Assembly (NCBI RefSeq): GCF_004209775.1
Contig: NZ_CP035914.1
Coordinates: 2,418,001-2,482,000 of the forward strand
From: Synechococcus sp. WH 8101
GTDB lineage: Bacteria; Cyanobacteriota; Cyanobacteriia; PCC-6307; Cyanobiaceae
DNA: 64,000 nt
Direction of reading: 5' to 3'
A program made the translations under genes and the position numbers. Positions 2,940-64,000 of the stretch are shown here, in pieces (position 1 is the first letter of the stretch; each line of letters starts with the position of its first letter). The notes beneath the pieces are model-generated. The model saw only the letters and a list, made by a program, of their open reading frames with translations, ran no database searches and was not told where the DNA came from.

Positions 2940-3734
2940 ATGGCTCTCCGCCCACCTTCAGCCCAACAAATCCGCAACGCTTTCCAGGTGGGGTTCGCAG
3001 GCTTCCTGGCCACTGGCCTGTATCTGACCGCTGGCGACGAAGCCCTCCGCGTCGATGCCTTTTACCTGGTTTACGGAGTAGCGCGCAGCCTGCTGCCCAC
3101 CCCTGAAGCCTCGCTGAAGGCAGCAAGGGCGAGGGTCGTAGGCACAGTCTTCGGTGGCTTCGTGGTGGCGATGCTGATCAAAGCGGTGAGCAACTGGCCC
3201 GCCGTGGGCATCGGTTACGTCCTCGTGAAACTGCTGGGACGGCGTCTGGGCATGGATGAAGCCACCTTGATGAATGGCGTGATCATGGCGTTGATGCTGG
3301 TGGCCGTGCCCGGATACCAGGAGCTAGGGGGCCTGTACGTGATGTACAGGACTGGCTGGCATCTGATCGGTCTGATGCTCGGCATGGCCGTTGAACGGTT
3401 GTTTTGGTTCAGTCCTCTGCTGAAGCGACTGCAAAGAAGCGAAATGGCGCTGATCGCCCTACTGGAAAATCTGCTGAAACAGGCACCGGCCCAACGCGAC
3501 TTGGAATTAATCGGCGCGTATGACTCCCACTGCAGCCTGCGCAGCATCGTGCTGAGAAGCGGTCAAGCCGCCATGCTCAGCACTCCTGAATCCCAACAAC
3601 GGCAAGAGTGGCTGGAACAGGCAGTTCGCCATGGCGTCGCTCGGCAACGGGTCAAGGGACCGCTCGTAAGCATCGATGCGGATGAATGCCTTGAAGCCCT
3701 GCGTCAGCTCAAGCGGAATAGCGGTATCGCGTGA
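2940..3734 (+). CDS. FUSC-like integral membrane protein, first of a pair
   Basis: About 264 residues. The N-terminal half has several hydrophobic segments, including QVGFAGFLATGLYLTAG, VVGTVFGGFVVAMLI and GVIMALMLVAVPGYQ. A soluble, helical C-terminal tail follows. The arrangement and the ARVVGTVFGG and WHLIGLMLGMAVERL patterns resemble the FUSC/aromatic-acid-exporter family. The start is taken as the ATG directly after an in-frame GTG (GTG-ATG). The stop overlaps the start of the next gene, so translation is probably coupled. The substrate is unknown; family membership is by pattern only. Confidence 0.6.
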   Translation: MALRPPSAQQIRNAFQVGFAGFLATGLYLTAGDEALRVDAFYLVYGVARSLLPTPEASLKAARARVVGTVFGGFVVAMLIKAVSNWPAVGIGYVLVKLLGRRLGMDEATLMNGVIMALMLVAVPGYQELGGLYVMYRTGWHLIGLMLGMAVERLFWFSPLLKRLQRSEMALIALLENLLKQAPAQRDLELIGAYDSHCSLRSIVLRSGQAAMLSTPESQQRQEWLEQAVRHGVARQRVKGPLVSIDADECLEALRQLKRNSGIA

Positions 3735-55503: not shown

Positions 55504-55530
55504 CCTACGTCGTGTAATCGGCGTTGATAC
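55504..55530. repeat. Distal attachment site, displaced original argJ 3' end
   Basis: Read on the - strand, this sequence encodes I-N-A-D-Y-T-T-stop in the same frame as ArgJ, with host-like wobble bases (GAT, ACG, ACG). It is 24 of 27 identical to the repeat at 62168-62194. The identical core TCGGCGTTGATAC is at 55518-55530. Just to its right the element contributes TACACA (55528-55533), half of the presumed integrase core site. Confidence 0.92.
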
Positions 55531-55875
55531 ACACGGACACTTCATAAGTATACACACCTAACCCCTAGACGATTGCTACCACTACGCTGGGTCAACAGGG
55601 CAGTTATCACAGAATTATCACAAGTGATGGAAATTATTATCACATGTGCCAGTAGAGGAACCTTGCCATGGCACGACACTTGCCACCCTGACTGGGAATT
55701 GGCAGGTGTGTATCGCCACTGACATCACAAAGCGATCACACAACGAGGAGAGGTGGGCATAACTCCAGACCTCGACAAGCGCCCTCAAGAAAGATACCCA
55801 ATACTGGGCAGGAGTCACCAAACACAACCAGCAATCATGTTAATGTGGTAAAATATATTTAGAGCACTCGGATCA
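55531..55875. other. Left end of the island: non-coding, with TTATCACA integrase arm-site candidates
   Basis: No convincing gene is seen in these 345 bases. TTATCACA occurs at 55604-55611, 55615-55622 and 55637-55644 on the + strand, three exact copies within 41 bases. A fourth copy sits at 55889-55896 at the start of the next gene. The same octamer occurs at the other end of the island. In tyrosine-recombinase systems such direct repeats flanking the core are arm-type integrase or excisionase sites. The stretch just before 55876 is AT-rich (AAAATATATTT) and may hold a promoter. Confidence 0.6.
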
Positions 55876-56412
55876 ATGATAAGGAAAATTATCACATCAC
55901 TTACACCCTTGTCAGTTCTATTATTTTCCTGTGGGTTCGCCGCCCAATCCAGCGTTTCAGTTCCAGACGAATTTGAGGGAGATATTTTAGTAGCCAAGAA
56001 TCTCGAGATCAACAAAAAGACTCCCAAAGACAGCCTTACTCCCAGCCTCTCATCCAGTCTTCCGATATCTCGGGATCTTTTACGTAAATTCCAGAGAACA
56101 GGTCAGACCTATCGGTACGAATCATCTTTGGCAATTTCAAAACTCTGGGAGGAAGGTCAAATCAAACAAGCAACATTTGAAATATATCGTGTAGACACGA
56201 CAACAGGAAAAGAGTCAAAGCGGAAAAGGGCAAATATATATTGCCTCGGATCAGCGGTGCCCGACAAGGAGGAAACACAAAAGCAAGTGAGAAGCCTGTA
56301 TGGAAGCACTGTTACTAATCCGTACTACTACAAAGGGCTTCGTGAGCTCTATTCGTATACGCCCCAAGAACACGCTTTGCTCTTGAAAGTCTGTTCATCG
56401 ATAGTGAAGTAA
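55876..56412 (+). CDS. Secreted protein of unknown function, island cargo
   Basis: 178 residues. A classic signal peptide (KIITSLTPLSVLLFSCGFAA) opens the protein. SPase I cleavage after FAA is likely, although the cysteine in FSCG could instead be a poor lipobox. The mature part is polar with a basic, tyrosine-rich C-terminal half (QIKQATFEIYRVDTT, NPYYYKGLRELYSYTPQEHA) and two cysteines that may pair. It matches no family that I know. It is the only obvious exported product of the island and may be cargo. Confidence 0.6.
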   Translation: MIRKIITSLTPLSVLLFSCGFAAQSSVSVPDEFEGDILVAKNLEINKKTPKDSLTPSLSSSLPISRDLLRKFQRTGQTYRYESSLAISKLWEEGQIKQATFEIYRVDTTTGKESKRKRANIYCLGSAVPDKEETQKQVRSLYGSTVTNPYYYKGLRELYSYTPQEHALLLKVCSSIVK

Positions 56413-56432: not shown

Positions 56433-56727
56433 CATTGGAGGCGAATGACGCCACCATCCTCACTAACCGCCAACAACACCAGGACCCTGGTTATACATCA
56501 GATTCTCTATACCACATAAAGACTCTTTAGGCAAATCAACTCGTAGCCATCTGTAGCAAATATCATCCCATGGGCGTCTTGAGATTGCTCATTCTCAGAT
56601 ATCAAGACATAGCCTGTTTTTATACTTGGTAAAATTGACAGAAGACAAAGTTAGAATGATGGAGAGGCAAGGTTGATGGTCCTGTGTGACCTCCCACGCC
56701 ACTAATCAGTCTTCTAAGTCCAAATTC

Positions 56728-57327
56728 ATGTGTAAGACAAACAGGAGTGGTAAGTCTGCTGTGCTCAACAAGAGGCAGCTGGAGATGGTCTTCGCTTCTC
56801 TACCTGAGAAGTATTCACTATTGGCGGAGATTCTCTACTACTCAGCGGGCAGGGTCTCGGAAGTTACCAACCTCAAGGTCAACAACATCAACTTCACGGA
56901 TGGTCTGGTGACCTTTGAGAAGTCCTCTACCAAAACGAAAGAGACCCGCCAGGTGCCACTACCGCCATCAGTCTTGGACAACTTATCCATATGGGTAGGT
57001 AGTCATGGTCTAAAGGGTGATGACTACATCTTCTTCACCAACTCTAGAAACATGAAACTCAAGGCAGGTGAGAAGTCTGTATCCACTCAGTCTGTAGACA
57101 ACTTCCTTCGTAAGGCATACGACTGGACTGGCATACAAGGAGCTTCTACACACTCCATGAGACGCTCACGCCTGACTCATCTTCATATTGAGGAGTCATG
57201 GTCACTACGAGAAATCATGAATATCAGCGGTCACAGAAATCTGATGTCTCTACAACAATACCTGGATAGCGACAGACGCCAAACCTTTGACAAATACAGA
57301 GAATTATTTGTGAAGGAGGGTGTTTGA
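56728..57327 (+). CDS. Small tyrosine recombinase, catalytic domain only
   Basis: 199 residues from the ATG at 56728; a GTG at 56686 would add 14. All catalytic residues are in place: Arg in SAGRVSEVTNL, Lys in the TKTKETRQVPLP hairpin, HSMRRS (HxxR), SGHRN (second His) and Tyr in LQQYLDSD. The N-terminal arm-binding and SAM-like core-binding domains of standard integrases are missing or very short. It may be a resolvase or excision partner, or may act on a different site from the large integrase. Confidence 0.85.
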   Translation: MCKTNRSGKSAVLNKRQLEMVFASLPEKYSLLAEILYYSAGRVSEVTNLKVNNINFTDGLVTFEKSSTKTKETRQVPLPPSVLDNLSIWVGSHGLKGDDYIFFTNSRNMKLKAGEKSVSTQSVDNFLRKAYDWTGIQGASTHSMRRSRLTHLHIEESWSLREIMNISGHRNLMSLQQYLDSDRRQTFDKYRELFVKEGV

Positions 57328-57538: not shown

Positions 57539-59041
57539 GTGAAGGTAGTAGAGGTCCCAGTTGATGCCATCAAGGTTAGGGTCCGAATGAGGACACCATC
57601 TGATGAAAAGGTGGAAGGGTTGGCAGAGTCTATTAGAGATATTGGGACACTAATCAATCCCATCACTATTGATGGTAACTACAACCTTATCGCTGGTTAC
57701 CATCGTCTACTGGCATTCCAGTCCTTAGGTAAAGAGACTATCCCTGCCACCATCCAGGAAGAAAGTAATGATACCTTCAACGAGCTCCTGGAGATTGATG
57801 AAAATCTTCTCCGTAATGAGTTGGATTACATAGAGGAAGCAGACCATCTAGTAAGGCGAGAGGAGTTGATGGCATCTCTCGGCACTATCTACAGGACAGG
57901 TGACAATCAACACACTAGTGGTGAAAGTAAAGTAAGCGTAGAAGAATTAGCTAGTAGCGTTGGACTATCCAAGAGGTCGTATCAACAACGAAAACAGATT
58001 TATAAACTACATCCTGAGGTAAAGTCATTTCTATCTGGCACAGAATTTGCTAAGTCACTTGTAGACCTTATAAAACTATCATCAGAAGAAGACCACATTC
58101 AGATTGAAATCGCCAACCTACTTATTACTGGTGAATGTAGGACATGGAAACAATCATTCTTCCAGGCGAAGATGAAGGACCATAAGTTGAAGACCACACC
58201 TCAGGTGGACTTCAACATCAAAGAGCGTTGGGGTGGAATGCCAAAGTCGTTGATGAAATTCCCGAGAGTGGAAGATGACTTACGGAAGGTATGTAACTTA
58301 GTCAACCACACAGAAGACTTGAGGCACACAAAAGCGACACTTGCCTTTGGTGACATGCCGATACGACTACATCAGCAGAATCCTGACCAATCTAGATTCT
58401 CTATTGATTACTACACTCGTCCAGGTCACTTAGTGTGTGACCCATTCAACGGCAGAGCTACTACAGCAGTCACGGCACTCCACCTCCAGAGAAGGTTTAT
58501 TGGGTTTGAGATAAACGCTCTAGCGGCACGGAAGACTAGAGAAGTCATCACTACCCATATGGAGGTTGAGGACTCTTCCTGGACCTTGTATGAAGAGTGT
58601 GGCGTTGAAATGGAAAGTCTCCGTAACGAGAGCGGAATCTTGGATGCCATATACACCAGTCCTCCGTATTTCAATTTTGCTGAGAGCTACAACACGGAAG
58701 ATGAAAGAGACCTATCTAACATGCCACTCCCTCAGTTTCTAGAGAAGATAGATATCCTCTTCGGCAACATCAGCAGACTAATCAAGACTAGTAACTACAA
58801 GGATAGAATCTTCCATCCAATCATCATGACCTTAGGCACAGCTAGAGATGGTGAGAATGGCATCCTAGACATGTCATACCACTTCCAGACAATTGCCAAG
58901 AGTCATGGTCTAACTCTGTGGGACCAAATGTTTGTAGAGGTCAACAATCCCTTCGCTTGGTCATCACATCAAACAAACTACAATCTAGGTTTCGTCACCA
59001 AAAACTATGAGACACAGGTGGCATGGGTAAAATTCAATTAG
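57539..59041 (+). CDS. ParB-domain / DNA methyltransferase fusion
   Basis: 500 residues from a GTG. Residues 1-70 are a ParB/sulfiredoxin-type nuclease domain (VPVDAIKVR, LAESIRDIGTLINPITI, IAGYHRLLAF). Residues about 130-160 look like a helix-turn-helix (SVEELASSVGLSKRSYQQRK). The methyltransferase part has SAM motif CDPFNGRATT at 300-309, RRFIGFEIN and the catalytic TSPPYFNF at 373-380, an amino-methyltransferase (N4-cytosine or N6-adenine) signature. Motif I precedes motif IV. No cognate endonuclease is seen, so it is an orphan methylase possibly used for regulation or protection. Confidence 0.82.
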   Translation: MKVVEVPVDAIKVRVRMRTPSDEKVEGLAESIRDIGTLINPITIDGNYNLIAGYHRLLAFQSLGKETIPATIQEESNDTFNELLEIDENLLRNELDYIEEADHLVRREELMASLGTIYRTGDNQHTSGESKVSVEELASSVGLSKRSYQQRKQIYKLHPEVKSFLSGTEFAKSLVDLIKLSSEEDHIQIEIANLLITGECRTWKQSFFQAKMKDHKLKTTPQVDFNIKERWGGMPKSLMKFPRVEDDLRKVCNLVNHTEDLRHTKATLAFGDMPIRLHQQNPDQSRFSIDYYTRPGHLVCDPFNGRATTAVTALHLQRRFIGFEINALAARKTREVITTHMEVEDSSWTLYEECGVEMESLRNESGILDAIYTSPPYFNFAESYNTEDERDLSNMPLPQFLEKIDILFGNISRLIKTSNYKDRIFHPIIMTLGTARDGENGILDMSYHFQTIAKSHGLTLWDQMFVEVNNPFAWSSHQTNYNLGFVTKNYETQVAWVKFN

Positions 59042-59778: not shown

Positions 59779-59915
59779 AGTACAATTAGACAGCGATTCA
59801 GATTGTTATATTTGGGTCCCATCTAGGGATGACAATCTATAACACCCTTTTGCCATAACCAACATATCGCTATCAGAAAAATTTCGCCAGGTAAACCATC
59901 TCCCGTAAGTTGAAT

Positions 59916-60365
59916 ATGAATAGACTTGACCGCTACCAATTATCAGTCCATGCCTCAAAACTAGCTACCGAGTTGAAAGGTATCAGTAGAAAGACAGAAG
60001 GTGGAATGCCAAAGTTTGTCAATCTTGAGTGTCCTGTATGTAAGTCCACCAAGTGTTGTGGACTCATTCCAACTGAGAGTAGAGACAACTACCGACTGAT
60101 ATGTAAGAGAGACTCTTGTGGATTGAATTCCATCTCTCTCAATATGGCGATGGAAGAATATGCTACACACCAGACCAAATCAGATTGGCGTGATGCCTTG
60201 GGATGGCGTCCTAAGAATGAGTGGCATGGAATCAAACACAGACGACCTAGAGGAAAGAGTCAGAAGAGTGATGCCACTTCCTTTAGAGAGTCACAACAAC
60301 AGAGACAGACACTCCAACACCTGAAGCTCCTACGAGATTTCCAGAGAGAGCGTGGCGAGTGGTAA
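59916..60365 (+). CDS. Zinc-ribbon protein of the island
   Basis: 149 residues from the ATG (a TTG at 59910 is two codons earlier). Cysteines in CPVCKSTKCCG (39, 42) and ICKRDSCG (63, 68) form a treble-clef or ribbon-like zinc site, as in primase-type and other DNA-binding zinc ribbons. A very basic segment follows (KHRRPRGKSQK), then a glutamine/arginine-rich helix (ESQQQRQTLQHLKLLRDFQR). Nucleic-acid binding is likely. The 131 bases before it (59779-59909) show no gene. Confidence 0.6.
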   Translation: MNRLDRYQLSVHASKLATELKGISRKTEGGMPKFVNLECPVCKSTKCCGLIPTESRDNYRLICKRDSCGLNSISLNMAMEEYATHQTKSDWRDALGWRPKNEWHGIKHRRPRGKSQKSDATSFRESQQQRQTLQHLKLLRDFQRERGEW

Positions 60366-60512: not shown

Positions 60513-60689
60513 ATGATGATGAAACTAGTGATTGAGTATCAGGACCAACATGGTTACTGGAAGAGATATCAAACATGCCACCATCAGCAGAATGCTTACA
60601 AAACTGCTGTCATACGAGCTAGACAGACAGGCAAGCGTTTTCGGTTAGTAGATGACGATGGTCATCTTCTGGACCTTATCAATCCTTAG
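60513..60689 (+). CDS. Tiny ORF 4 of the island (58 aa)
   Basis: Three consecutive ATG codons open the frame (MMMKLVIEYQDQHGYWKRYQ), which ends RLVDDDGHLLDLINP. The pattern of a short strand, a basic middle (RARQTGKRFR) and an acidic C-terminus looks like a small folded protein. It begins 11 bases after the 18-bp palindrome and overlaps the 3' end of the convergent integrase gene by 11 bases. No family recognised. Confidence 0.5.
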   Translation: MMMKLVIEYQDQHGYWKRYQTCHHQQNAYKTAVIRARQTGKRFRLVDDDGHLLDLINP

Positions 60690-62046
60690 GGTCTACATCC
60701 ATGATGTCCTCAATCTCCACCAGGACATAATTTTCATGTCGCTTCAACTTATTGAAGAAGACTCTATTCTGAGAAAGTGTCTCCCATGTCTGCTTAGATT
60801 CACTCTCATGATGAAAGTAGACATCTTCTAAGTATCGTGTGCCTGTGCCACAATTCCTACTCAGCAGTAGCATCGGCACGCCTCTACTCACAGCGAAACT
60901 GATTCCTGTGTGCCTGAAGCTATACCAAGTTATATTTTTCTGATTCCAATATCGGTCGGCACATTCAGACTTGATATCTTTCCAGAGTCTGTCCCATGTG
61001 CCTTGTCCCATGGGTTGGTCTGGGTGACCAAACTTACTAATAACAAAATCATTCAACCTATCGGGAGGGACATGTGGGAATGGACCTCTGTGTTTAGGGA
61101 TGCCAGATAACTCACGAATGGTCTGAAAATGCTTAGTAGTAGGAGACTGAATAGTCCTTGACTCACCAGTCTTTGTTGCCTCAGGTCTGATACGAATCAG
61201 ATGACCAACCTTCTGGTCCTCCTTACTCAAATTCGTATTGGGGTCTAGGTCACGCCAGCGTAGCTTCCTCAATTCACCCACTCGCTGGCAACTATTAGAC
61301 ATCACAAGAATCGCCTGGTAGATAACCTGGCGGTTGTATTCCTGAGATGGCGTCAGATTCTTAGACTTGGACCACGCCCTAATAGTGTTGATAGTTTGCT
61401 GATACTGGCGTGGTGACAAGTAGTCACGCCTGTTATTTCTAAGCGACTCACTTCTAACCTTCTCAAACTCAGGTTTCCTAGGTAGCAGACCTTTCTCAAA
61501 TAGAAAATCAAAATATGCTTTTATGGTTGTGAGCTCTGTCCTGATGGTGTGTTGAGTCTTAGGTGGTGAAGGATTCCAGGTTTCATCTTTAGTCCTACGC
61601 CATGTCGGATATTTCTGTAGTTTAGGATAATCTAAATCTTCTAACCTAATACTTCTATCATGATAAAACCTCTTCAGCATCTTCAGATGATGTGACTTTA
61701 TCCTGAAGGTCTCAGAAGTTATGTGATTAGGTTTGTTGTAGTCAGCGACACGCTCCTTCTCAGATGCCAGATATTCATCTATGAAATCAAACATCTTTTT
61801 GACACGCCGTGCCTTGAGACCTTGCTTCTGTCTCATCATCACTTCAAGTTTTCTGTCCCTAGCTACCTGGAGTGCCTCTACCTGATTCTTCTTCTTCGTA
61901 GATTTACGCTCAACACCCTCACCAGGGATAGTCAGAAAATATTGCCAGGTGCCTGAGTTGGGTCGTTTGTAGATGTAGCAATCCTCCTCTGGAGGAAACA
62001 CCAGCGTCTTCTCCTGGACCCACTTGCCTTCGGATGGTCTCGCCAC
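60679..62046 (-). CDS. int: Tyrosine-type site-specific integrase
   Basis: 455 residues from a GTG. An N-terminal arm-binding part (KRPNSGTWQYFLTIPG), a SAM-like core-binding domain (about 85-185) and the catalytic domain are present. Catalytic residues: R255 in QRVGELRKLRW, K292 in ATKTGESRTI, Y375-S-F-R378-H-T and nucleophile Y410 in YLEDVYFHH. The YSxRHT box with a GT in place of the usual GH places it with phage-type integrases that carry Tyr at the first His position. It lies 122 bases inside the argJ-proximal junction, as expected for the integrase of this element. Confidence 0.92.
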   Translation of the reverse strand: MARPSEGKWVQEKTLVFPPEEDCYIYKRPNSGTWQYFLTIPGEGVERKSTKKKNQVEALQVARDRKLEVMMRQKQGLKARRVKKMFDFIDEYLASEKERVADYNKPNHITSETFRIKSHHLKMLKRFYHDRSIRLEDLDYPKLQKYPTWRRTKDETWNPSPPKTQHTIRTELTTIKAYFDFLFEKGLLPRKPEFEKVRSESLRNNRRDYLSPRQYQQTINTIRAWSKSKNLTPSQEYNRQVIYQAILVMSNSCQRVGELRKLRWRDLDPNTNLSKEDQKVGHLIRIRPEATKTGESRTIQSPTTKHFQTIRELSGIPKHRGPFPHVPPDRLNDFVISKFGHPDQPMGQGTWDRLWKDIKSECADRYWNQKNITWYSFRHTGISFAVSRGVPMLLLSRNCGTGTRYLEDVYFHHESESKQTWETLSQNRVFFNKLKRHENYVLVEIEDIMDVDPKD

Positions 62047-62077: not shown

Positions 62078-62164
62078 TTATCACACTATTGTCACAGGTC
62101 AGCAAGGTATGTAGTCAGCAGGCAGGCAAAATGCTTGGCATGACTAGAGAGTCTACTTATCACA
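62078..62164. promoter_or_regulatory. Right-end TTATCACA integrase arm-site candidates
   Basis: TTATCACA occurs at 62078-62085 and 62157-62164, and the variant TTGTCACA at 62089-62096, in the same orientation as the copies at the left end. They lie between the integrase start (62046) and the attachment repeat (62168), so binding here could both build the recombination complex and regulate int. Confidence 0.6.
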
Positions 62165-62167
62165 ATA

Positions 62168-62194
62168 CCTATGTTGTGTAGTCGGCGTTGATAC
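62168..62194. repeat. argJ-proximal attachment site
   Basis: The right copy of the 27-bp direct repeat forms the present 3' end of argJ. It differs from the left copy at three bases (62172, 62175 and 62181), all wobble positions and all on the stop-codon side of the 13-bp identical core 62182-62194. TGTGTA at 62175-62180 is the mirror half-site of TACACA at 55528-55533. Confidence 0.92.
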
Positions 62195-63422
62195 GGACAT
62201 ACTGATCGGAGAGATCGCAACCCCAGGCCTGGCCCTGACCGGGGCCATCACCGACCCGCAACCGGATCCTCACACTGTCGTCCTGCAAGTAGGCACCCGC
62301 CGCTCGCTCGCGCAGGTATCGGGACGCTGCAGGACGATCAAAAGGCAGGGGCTGTCCAGCGGCCATTAATTGATGCTCGCCAAGCCAGAGCGCCACGGTC
62401 TCGGGGTCAAAGTGCACCCCGGCGCGGCCAGCGGCGGCAATGATCCGGCCCCAGTTGGGATCGCGACCATGAATGGCGGTTTTCACCAACGACGACCCAC
62501 ACACGGTGCGAGCGATCCGCTGCGCCTCCGCTTCCGAGGCGGCACCGTCCACCCGCACATCCATCAGACAGGTGGCCCCTTCACCGTCACGGGCAATGGC
62601 GCGGGCCAGATGCTGAGCCACCTGGGTCACACCCTCTTCCAAGGCCGCCAGCTGATCCGGCGGCAAGGGGGCTCCGGCGGCAAACGCCAGAAACGAATCA
62701 TTGGTGCTCGTGTCACCGTCCACGGTGATGGCGTTGAACGACCGCTGCACCGCCCGCTGCACCAGCGCCTGCCACTGATCCGCGGGCACCGCAGCATCAC
62801 AGGTGAGGTAGCCGAGCATCGTGGCCATATCGGGATGAATCATTCCCGACCCCTTGGCCATGCCACCGATGCGCACGCGCCGGCCGCCGAGATTGGCCTC
62901 CAGGGCGATCTGCTTGTCGATCAGATCGGTGGTGAGAATCGCTGTGGCAGCTGCCGCGCCACCATCGCCGCTCAAGGCCGACGCCAGAGGATCGATCCCC
63001 GCCAACAAAATATCCATCGGGATCGGCACCCCGATCACACCGGTGGAGCAGATCAGCACCTCCTCTGCCGTCAGCCCCAGCCGATCCGCCAGCGCCTGGG
63101 TGGCCCGCTGGCTATCGATCAAGCCGCGATCCCCCGTGCAGGCATTGGCCTGACCGGAATTGGTGAGCACCGCCCGCACCTGGCCACCACGGCGCTGCAA
63201 CCGTTCGATGCAAAGATCCACGCAGGCCGCCCGCACCACCGATGTGGTGAAGGTGCCGGCACACACCGCTCCCTCCGGCGCCAACAGCAGAGCGAGATCT
63301 GGTTTCCCGGAAGCCTTCAGCCCGGCGGTGAAGCCTGAGGCCTGAAACCCATCCGGAGCCGTGAGGCCTCCCGGCACGGCAACCCAAGTGGGCGAGAGGG
63401 ATCCGCTGTTGGCCACCATCAC
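62169..63422 (-). CDS. argJ: Bifunctional ornithine acetyltransferase / N-acetylglutamate synthase ArgJ
   Basis: About 417 residues from MVANSGSLSP. It recycles the acetyl group in arginine synthesis. The self-cleavage site lies in MIHPDMATMLGYLTCDA (between Ala and Thr). VLTNSGQANACTG, STGVIGVPIPMD and the C-terminal NWGRIIAAAGRAGV are conserved. The last codons (D-Y-T-T-stop) now come from the inserted island, but the protein sequence is unchanged. In-frame ATGs at 63464 and 63512 exist; the one at 63464 would share CATG with the divergent coaE start. Confidence 0.93.
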   Translation of the reverse strand: MMVANSGSLSPTWVAVPGGLTAPDGFQASGFTAGLKASGKPDLALLLAPEGAVCAGTFTTSVVRAACVDLCIERLQRRGGQVRAVLTNSGQANACTGDRGLIDSQRATQALADRLGLTAEEVLICSTGVIGVPIPMDILLAGIDPLASALSGDGGAAAATAILTTDLIDKQIALEANLGGRRVRIGGMAKGSGMIHPDMATMLGYLTCDAAVPADQWQALVQRAVQRSFNAITVDGDTSTNDSFLAFAAGAPLPPDQLAALEEGVTQVAQHLARAIARDGEGATCLMDVRVDGAASEAEAQRIARTVCGSSLVKTAIHGRDPNWGRIIAAAGRAGVHFDPETVALWLGEHQLMAAGQPLPFDRPAASRYLRERAAGAYLQDDSVRIRLRVGDGPGQGQAWGCDLSDQYVRINADYTT

Positions 63423-63462
63423 GCCTGCAGGGGAGACACTGGATCCATCCTCACCCCGCGCC

Positions 63463-64000
63463 ATGCCCAGCCAACGCCGGATTGGCCTCACCGGAGGGAT
63501 TGCCAGCGGCAAGAGCAGCGTCGGTCGCTGGCTGGCGCAACGGGGTATTCCCGTGCTCGATGCCGATCAGGTCGCGCGGGAGGTTTTGGCTTCAGGCAGC
63601 GAAGCCACCCGGCAAGTGATCGCCCATTTCGGCGATCGGGTGCGCGCCAAGGGCGCCACAGGGGAGGAGGCTTGTCTCGATCGCGCGGCCCTGGGCCGGA
63701 TCGTGTTCAGCGACCCAGACGAGCGACGCTGGCTGGAGCAGCTGGTGCACCCTCGCGTGCGTGATCACTTCGATGTGGAGCTGCTGAGGCTCCAGCAGGA
63801 GCCAATCGTGGTGCTGATGATTCCGCTGCTGTTTGAAGCAGGCCTGGAGAGCCTCTGCACAGAAATCTGGGTCGTGACCTGCTCAGAACAGCAGCAACAA
63901 GAACGACTCATGGCCCGAGACGGCCTGACGGTCGAAGAAGCCCGGCTCAGGATCGCCGCCCAGATGCCCCTCGCCAGCAAATGCGCCAGAGCAGACCTGG
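63463..64000 (+). CDS. coaE: Dephospho-CoA kinase CoaE (cut by window edge)
   Basis: The last step of coenzyme A synthesis, phosphorylating the ribose 3' hydroxyl. The P-loop IGLTGGIASGKSSVGRWLA opens the protein. DADQVAREVL, FSDPDERRWLEQLVHPRVR, VVLMIPLLFEAGLE and the lid region with ERLMARDGLT follow. About 179 codons are inside the window and the C-terminus is missing. It starts 41 bases from the argJ ATG used here, divergently. Confidence 0.93.
   Translation, partial: MPSQRRIGLTGGIASGKSSVGRWLAQRGIPVLDADQVAREVLASGSEATRQVIAHFGDRVRAKGATGEEACLDRAALGRIVFSDPDERRWLEQLVHPRVRDHFDVELLRLQQEPIVVLMIPLLFEAGLESLCTEIWVVTCSEQQQQERLMARDGLTVEEARLRIAAQMPLASKCARADL

Follow-up and report, generated by a model that had tools for sequence, protein, structure and literature searches.

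Replacement of the end of a target gene by an incoming mobile element is a known principle, exemplified by e14 in the icd gene of E. coli, for which an excerpted account (PMC11148124) reports a duplicated segment of 165 bp in which 12 nucleotides are exchanged, two residues are changed conservatively and the reading frame stays intact. In its part on insertion at gene ends, a review of mobilizable elements (PMC5704250) describes undisrupted targets and tandem accretion, the introduction of PMC12884075 mentions that a genomic island often restores the gene that it enters, and background passages of an article on Methylophilaceae (PMC10872708) present tycheposons, integrative elements of 4-200 kb with a tyrosine recombinase, found at tRNA genes and with Prochlorococcus among their hosts. 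Here we describe a locus in Synechococcus sp. WH 8101, within a window of 64,000 nucleotides (contig NZ_CP035914.1, positions 2,418,001 to 2,482,000 of the forward strand), in which a 6.66-kb tyrosine-integrase element is very probably inserted at the 3' end of argJ, furnishing the gene with a surrogate end that leaves the ArgJ protein unchanged. Flanking direct repeats, an adjoining integrase, an empty site in a relative and an intact target protein were all found, as befits a target-restoring site-specific element.

The element lies between two direct repeats, 55504-55530 and 62168-62194, which are identical at 24 of 27 positions; each is the sole match of the other in the window when up to six mismatches are allowed. 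The sites, in window coordinates, are as follows:
62169-63512, minus strand: argJ open reading frame (ORF) with a mechanical TTG start, ending INADYTT-stop with the stop codon at 62169 (PF01960, E 4.7e-140).
62168-62194, minus strand: repeat copy attached to argJ, attR-like, reading ATC AAC GCC GAC TAC ACA ACA TAG in the argJ frame; core plus element-side tail GAC TAC ACA ACA TAG (repeat search, argJ frame, empty-site comparison).
62182-62194, minus strand: identical 13-bp core, 55518-55530 in the other copy, within which the exchange point is presumed to lie (repeat search).
55504-55530, minus strand: displaced repeat copy, attL-like, reading ATC AAC GCC GAT TAC ACG ACG TAG in the argJ frame; native tail GAT TAC ACG ACG TAG followed by native flank (repeat search; polarity from the empty site, genome G003, locus L067).

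The three differences between the copies are all transitions and all fall at third codon positions. A first-pass annotation of this stretch had read GAT/GAC, ACG/ACA and ACG/ACA as synonymous in ArgJ with the stop codon retained, and both copies indeed encode D-Y-T-T-stop; the repeat alignment likewise places all three differences on the stop side of the core, as it had stated. Taken alone, three synonymous changes in one window form a weak pattern: of the 7722 ways to change three bases of the 13-nt tail, 54 retain DYTT-stop (0.7%), and with transitions only 14 of 286.

The polarity of the exchange is provided by the same-genus genome G003, in which the window flanks are matched in two pieces overlapping by 25 bases, the argJ side being 91% and the far flank 93% identical. 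From ATC through the stop codon G003 has the same 24 bases as the displaced copy, with its ACG-ACG tail, which identifies the displaced copy as native and ACA-ACA as the version on the element side. The element had been credited with the whole of D-Y-T-T-stop; this holds for Y-T-T-stop and the third base of the Asp codon, the first two bases of which lie in the core. A displaced copy was detected in four of 25 same-genus loci, and none of the other 21 already ends in ACA-ACA, in keeping with the earlier claim.

Copies downstream of 79 argJ ends were sought with a seed ending before the tail, yielding 36 pairs of an attached tail and the first displaced tail. In these pairs 80 of 144 sense-codon wobble cells differ as against 5 of 216 cells at positions 1-2, so that the expected confinement of substitutions to wobble positions holds for the most part and not strictly; 19 stop-codon differences were observed, none at the first base, and mean identity past the stop codon drops to 0.31, which equals background. 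The upstream half of the displaced copy, untranslated as ArgJ, served as a control: positions 1-2 differ there at 63/216, and by class of pair the upstream and tail counts are 25/66 vs 2/66 in class 1 (p 5e-7) and 38/150 vs 3/150 in class 2 (p 1e-9). Three matches (L091 16210, L100 11810 and L114 15311) with >6/13 tail mismatches were treated as chance and left out. Sixteen seed matches at loci of genus g18 were likewise dropped and 19 kept, five of them without EYTT-stop; the g18 displaced list is unreliable in this AT-rich sequence, and g18 displaced counts enter no test. The seed finds no displaced copy at loci L025, L027 and L029, and weak candidates at the latter two (8 and 7 of 27 mismatches), with altered tails if real, were not counted.

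The distribution of intact tails indicates where selection acts. From Asp on, 78 of 79 attached tails read DYTT and one reads DYHT, whereas among displaced tails 45 of 53 read DYTT and eight are altered, a nonsense change and the loss of a stop codon among them (Fisher p 0.003). A tail-blind sample, picked by an upstream pattern only, consists of the window, 20 new loci and the 25 same-genus loci; in it 46/46 attached tails and 6/9 displaced tails are intact (Fisher p 0.003). The nine tail-blind pairs, which supersede an earlier 11-pair subset (positions 1-2 2/66, wobble 24/44), differ at 20/36 wobble cells, 5/54 cells at positions 1-2 and 15/54 upstream cells at positions 1-2; tail positions 1-2 thus stand apart from wobble with p 2e-6 and from upstream with p 0.024. 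As attached tails are intact and some displaced tails altered, the constraint is best assigned to argJ for as long as the element sits there. The first-pass annotation had instead invoked selection on attP, the attachment site of the element, as such; the decay of displaced tails (8/53, or 3/9 tail-blind) beside intact attached ones, together with the DYHT element, speaks against that wording. What survives of its interpretation is an element-side tail distinct from the empty-site version and a constraint at the protein level, and its term coding-neutral suits this element and almost every other one observed, provided that it denotes the outcome of selection on argJ during integration.

We propose that a tyrosine-integrase element enters the 3' end of argJ and that its attachment site would end in a surrogate argJ end. 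Strand exchange probably takes place within the 13-bp core, whereupon the element tail GAC-TAC-ACA-ACA-TAG would replace the native GAT-TAC-ACG-ACG-TAG with the ArgJ protein remaining the same. Purifying selection on argJ during each integrated stay would presumably keep the carried tail functional, and selection on free attP would be unnecessary.

Several observations weigh against this proposal. Neither a free circle nor an attP was observed, and 0 viral contigs carry the intact-tail pattern. A pattern favoring intact tails had been used to pick many of the loci that underlie the 36 pairs, and the tail-blind pairs, while pointing in the same direction, give a weaker contrast than the 36-pair set; displaced copies in that sample number only 9, and one of them (L206) may be a chance match, p rising to 0.02 without it. 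The claim that related elements leave the ArgJ C-terminus unchanged fails at the nearest element, that of Prochlorococcus AG-311-D23 (G317), which gives DYHT at argJ and has DYTT in its displaced copy; this residue varies in solved ArgJ proteins, 1vz6 ending EYTT and 1vra GYRT. In genome G114 the attached end reads INSDYTT, a change outside the tail. Finally, the three differences in the window could in part postdate the insertion; just upstream of the site 26 of 120 third positions of argJ differ between the window and G003.

This divergence is also what an account by drift would draw upon, in which a native-like tail was brought in and the attached end later changed at three wobble sites. 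Such an account needs changes at at least three of four wobble positions, for which the divergence of argJ from G003 in this region gives a probability of 0.034, and other same-genus loci differ between attached and displaced tails even in the stop codon (TAA vs TGA in G006); we therefore consider it improbable. Another reading appeals to DNA recognition alone: attP resembles attB, the host attachment site, for the sake of the integrase, the wobble differences reflect variation among host argJ genes, and no coding selection bears on the tail. The untranslated upstream side is also wobble-biased, at 34/75 vs 38/150 in class 2 (p 0.004) and 20/33 at wobble vs 25/66 at positions 1-2 in class 1 (p 0.053), and because of this bias in the control, some of the signature can be put down to DNA recognition of a coding site. 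As the whole explanation it is unlikely, since tail positions 1-2 are far more conserved than upstream ones (more weakly so in the tail-blind pairs), the similarity ends at the stop codon, and attached and displaced tails meet the same integrase yet differ in amino-acid integrity. Mere chance, by which three random transitions would be synonymous through luck, could appeal to the 4.9% of triple transitions that retain DYTT-stop, but recurrence of the pattern across 36 pairs leaves it scarcely credible.

The inserted element has a G+C content of 43%, neighboring DNA being mostly at 60-70%, and this low G+C would fit its A-ending threonine codons. Its other recognized features are:
60679-62046, minus strand: tyrosine integrase of clade int1, starting ~123 nt past the argJ stop codon in the same direction (PHROG integrase, E 1.3e-26; PF13102 above cut-off, PF00589 below cut-off with 21 vs 27.1 bits).
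56686-57327, plus strand: second, small tyrosine recombinase (PF00589, E 7.3e-22).
57539-59041, plus strand: ParB-N/DNA methylase fusion protein (Pfam), present in two related elements.
55876-56412, plus strand: ORF of 178 amino acids without a Pfam or PHROGs family match (Pfam and PHROGs scans).
59910-60365, plus strand: ORF of 151 amino acids without a Pfam or PHROGs family match, weakly similar (29%) to the elements of genome G058 (Pfam, PHROGs, tblastn).
62157-62164, minus strand: direct repeat TGTGATAA, first base 4 nt past the argJ stop codon, a probable integrase arm site (repeat search).
62078-62096, minus strand: two more repeats, TGTGATAA at 62078-62085 and TGTGACAA at 62089-62096 (repeat search).
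55604-55644, minus strand, hence the same strand: three TGTGATAA copies at the opposite element end, 55604-55611, 55615-55622 and 55637-55644 (repeat search).

The TGTGAYAA direct repeats, three per end, amount to 6 in 500 bp as against 0.57 per 500 bp inside the element with one mismatch allowed, and two related elements have the same enrichment at their ends (7 vs 1.2 and 6 vs 0.29). They are probably arm sites of the integrase. The small recombinase and the ParB-methylase fusion both recur in related elements of Prochlorococcus AG-311-D23 and G058. Pfam and PHROGs scans of five element proteins, smaller ORFs being outside the scan, recognized no relaxase or mobilization gene, and PHROGs no capsid, packaging or capsid-remodelling gene of the kind found in phage-inducible chromosomal islands. 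PADLOC matched the ParB-methylase alone among the five, and the matches listed are to methyltransferase models only. A phage origin of the integrase was considered and rejected, as phages gave no match and viral contigs no confirmed match in a search for close relatives only; a plasmid origin was likewise rejected, the single match being at 23% to a Rhizobium plasmid. For the ParB-methylase and the small recombinase phages give distant matches only, and viral contigs none confirmed. A tRNA as the target was also dismissed, ARAGORN finding no tRNA in the window, and the site is argJ.

The integrase has one named relative in our search, with matches in 19/400 family genomes at 1e-25. Clade int1, defined by >=45% identity, comprises, with that of the window, 8 genes from 7 genomes, and all of these genes start ~120-133 nt past an argJ tail and run in the same direction; given this constant spacing and direction, read-through from argJ might drive the integrase. 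Its members include those at loci L025, L026, L027, L029 and L033 and at 60679-62046 of the window, and L025 (G058) has a tandem pair of different int1 elements at one argJ (offsets 127 and 6178). The more distant clades int2 and int3 lie at the far element end beside the displaced copy and point toward argJ; identity between the three clades is ~23-33% for the proteins that were compared. The tail GAC TAC ACA ACA TAG also occurs at argJ in L082 (G022, with an int2 element) and L213 (G366), where the sequence past the stop codon differs from that of the window despite the same tail.

The end of argJ looks like a hot spot in relatives of Prochlorococcus and Synechococcus, used by all three integrase clades. 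The pattern AAYGCNGAYTAYNNNACNTRR is present in 263/400 genomes, 62 of which have at least two copies genome-wide; its reversed control gives five matches in all. In genus g18, where ArgJ ends INSEYTT, an NSEYTT pattern occurs in 57/61 genomes, 25 of them with at least two copies, and all 38 attached ends found in 40 g18 loci read INSEYTT. The NSE pattern is found in 0/41 genomes of genus g56 and the NAD(Y) pattern in 0/68 g18 genomes, and from this split by genus it follows that the carried tails track the ArgJ residues of the host clade. At the g18 loci L157, L175, L176 and L177 the serine codon of the core region is AGC in some closely similar argJ genes and TCG in others, and the downstream DNA stays similar, as if earlier insertions had overwritten the argJ end. 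Three inverted argJ-tail copies lie ~5-9 kb downstream of argJ at L108 (G137), which suggests inversion between attachment sites; the inverted copies of this genome were left out of the tests.

At five loci (L090, L112, L113, L114 and L115) argJ tails recur behind argJ at 0.7-4.9 kb, bounding segments of one to few ORFs each with no integrase of the int1-int3 clades in between; L169 also carries such an array. Array ORFs, named by eye, include barrel-like membrane proteins, a cytosine methylase and a HupE-like protein. At L095 a tail-bounded segment contains, at offset 3023-3289 past the argJ stop codon, a short ORF resembling the int1 N-terminus by eye, and because this segment holds an int1-like start some array segments are probably remnants. 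The arrays resemble a stack of elements at argJ that have decayed or been mobilised in trans. An integron-like cassette array, made of small gene segments that each have one recombination site and no integrase of their own, is a possible comparison for these stretches of 0.7-4.9 kb between argJ tails. One possibility, which we advance tentatively, is that the last codons of picocyanobacterial argJ anchor a gene-cassette system, in which non-autonomous segments of one to few genes, each with a translatable ArgJ tail matched to the host, would be stacked in trans by related tyrosine recombinases, with selection on ArgJ maintaining the tail on duty and older copies decaying.

The locus puts numbers on an arrangement in which a mobile element, in return for its landing site, carries the end of the host gene, with a built-in control in the form of intact attached tails and decaying displaced ones. 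The argJ end also has the look of a gene-gain hot spot in relatives of Prochlorococcus and Synechococcus. Of this, as of argJ as an integration site, the papers listed in searches of a limited collection of literature, some judged by title, gave no printed account. Like tycheposons, as far as the background passages characterize them, the window element is integrative and has a tyrosine recombinase; unlike them it lies at argJ and not at a tRNA gene. With integrative and mobilizable elements at the 3' ends of housekeeping genes and the accretion of cis-mobilizable elements (CIMEs), as the part on gene ends presents them, it shares tandem accretion at shared sites, and it differs in the lack of a recognized relaxase or mobilization gene among the five proteins scanned. 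Phage 21 and e14 are reportedly the subject of a paper by Wang et al. from 1997. Unlike e14, a lambdoid prophage with a much longer replaced segment, the window element uses argJ and a 27-bp repeat, and phage structural genes were not found in its five scanned proteins. Like e14 (and phage 21) in icd, to the extent that the excerpted account covers it, the element enters a protein-coding gene and supplies it with a new 3' end.
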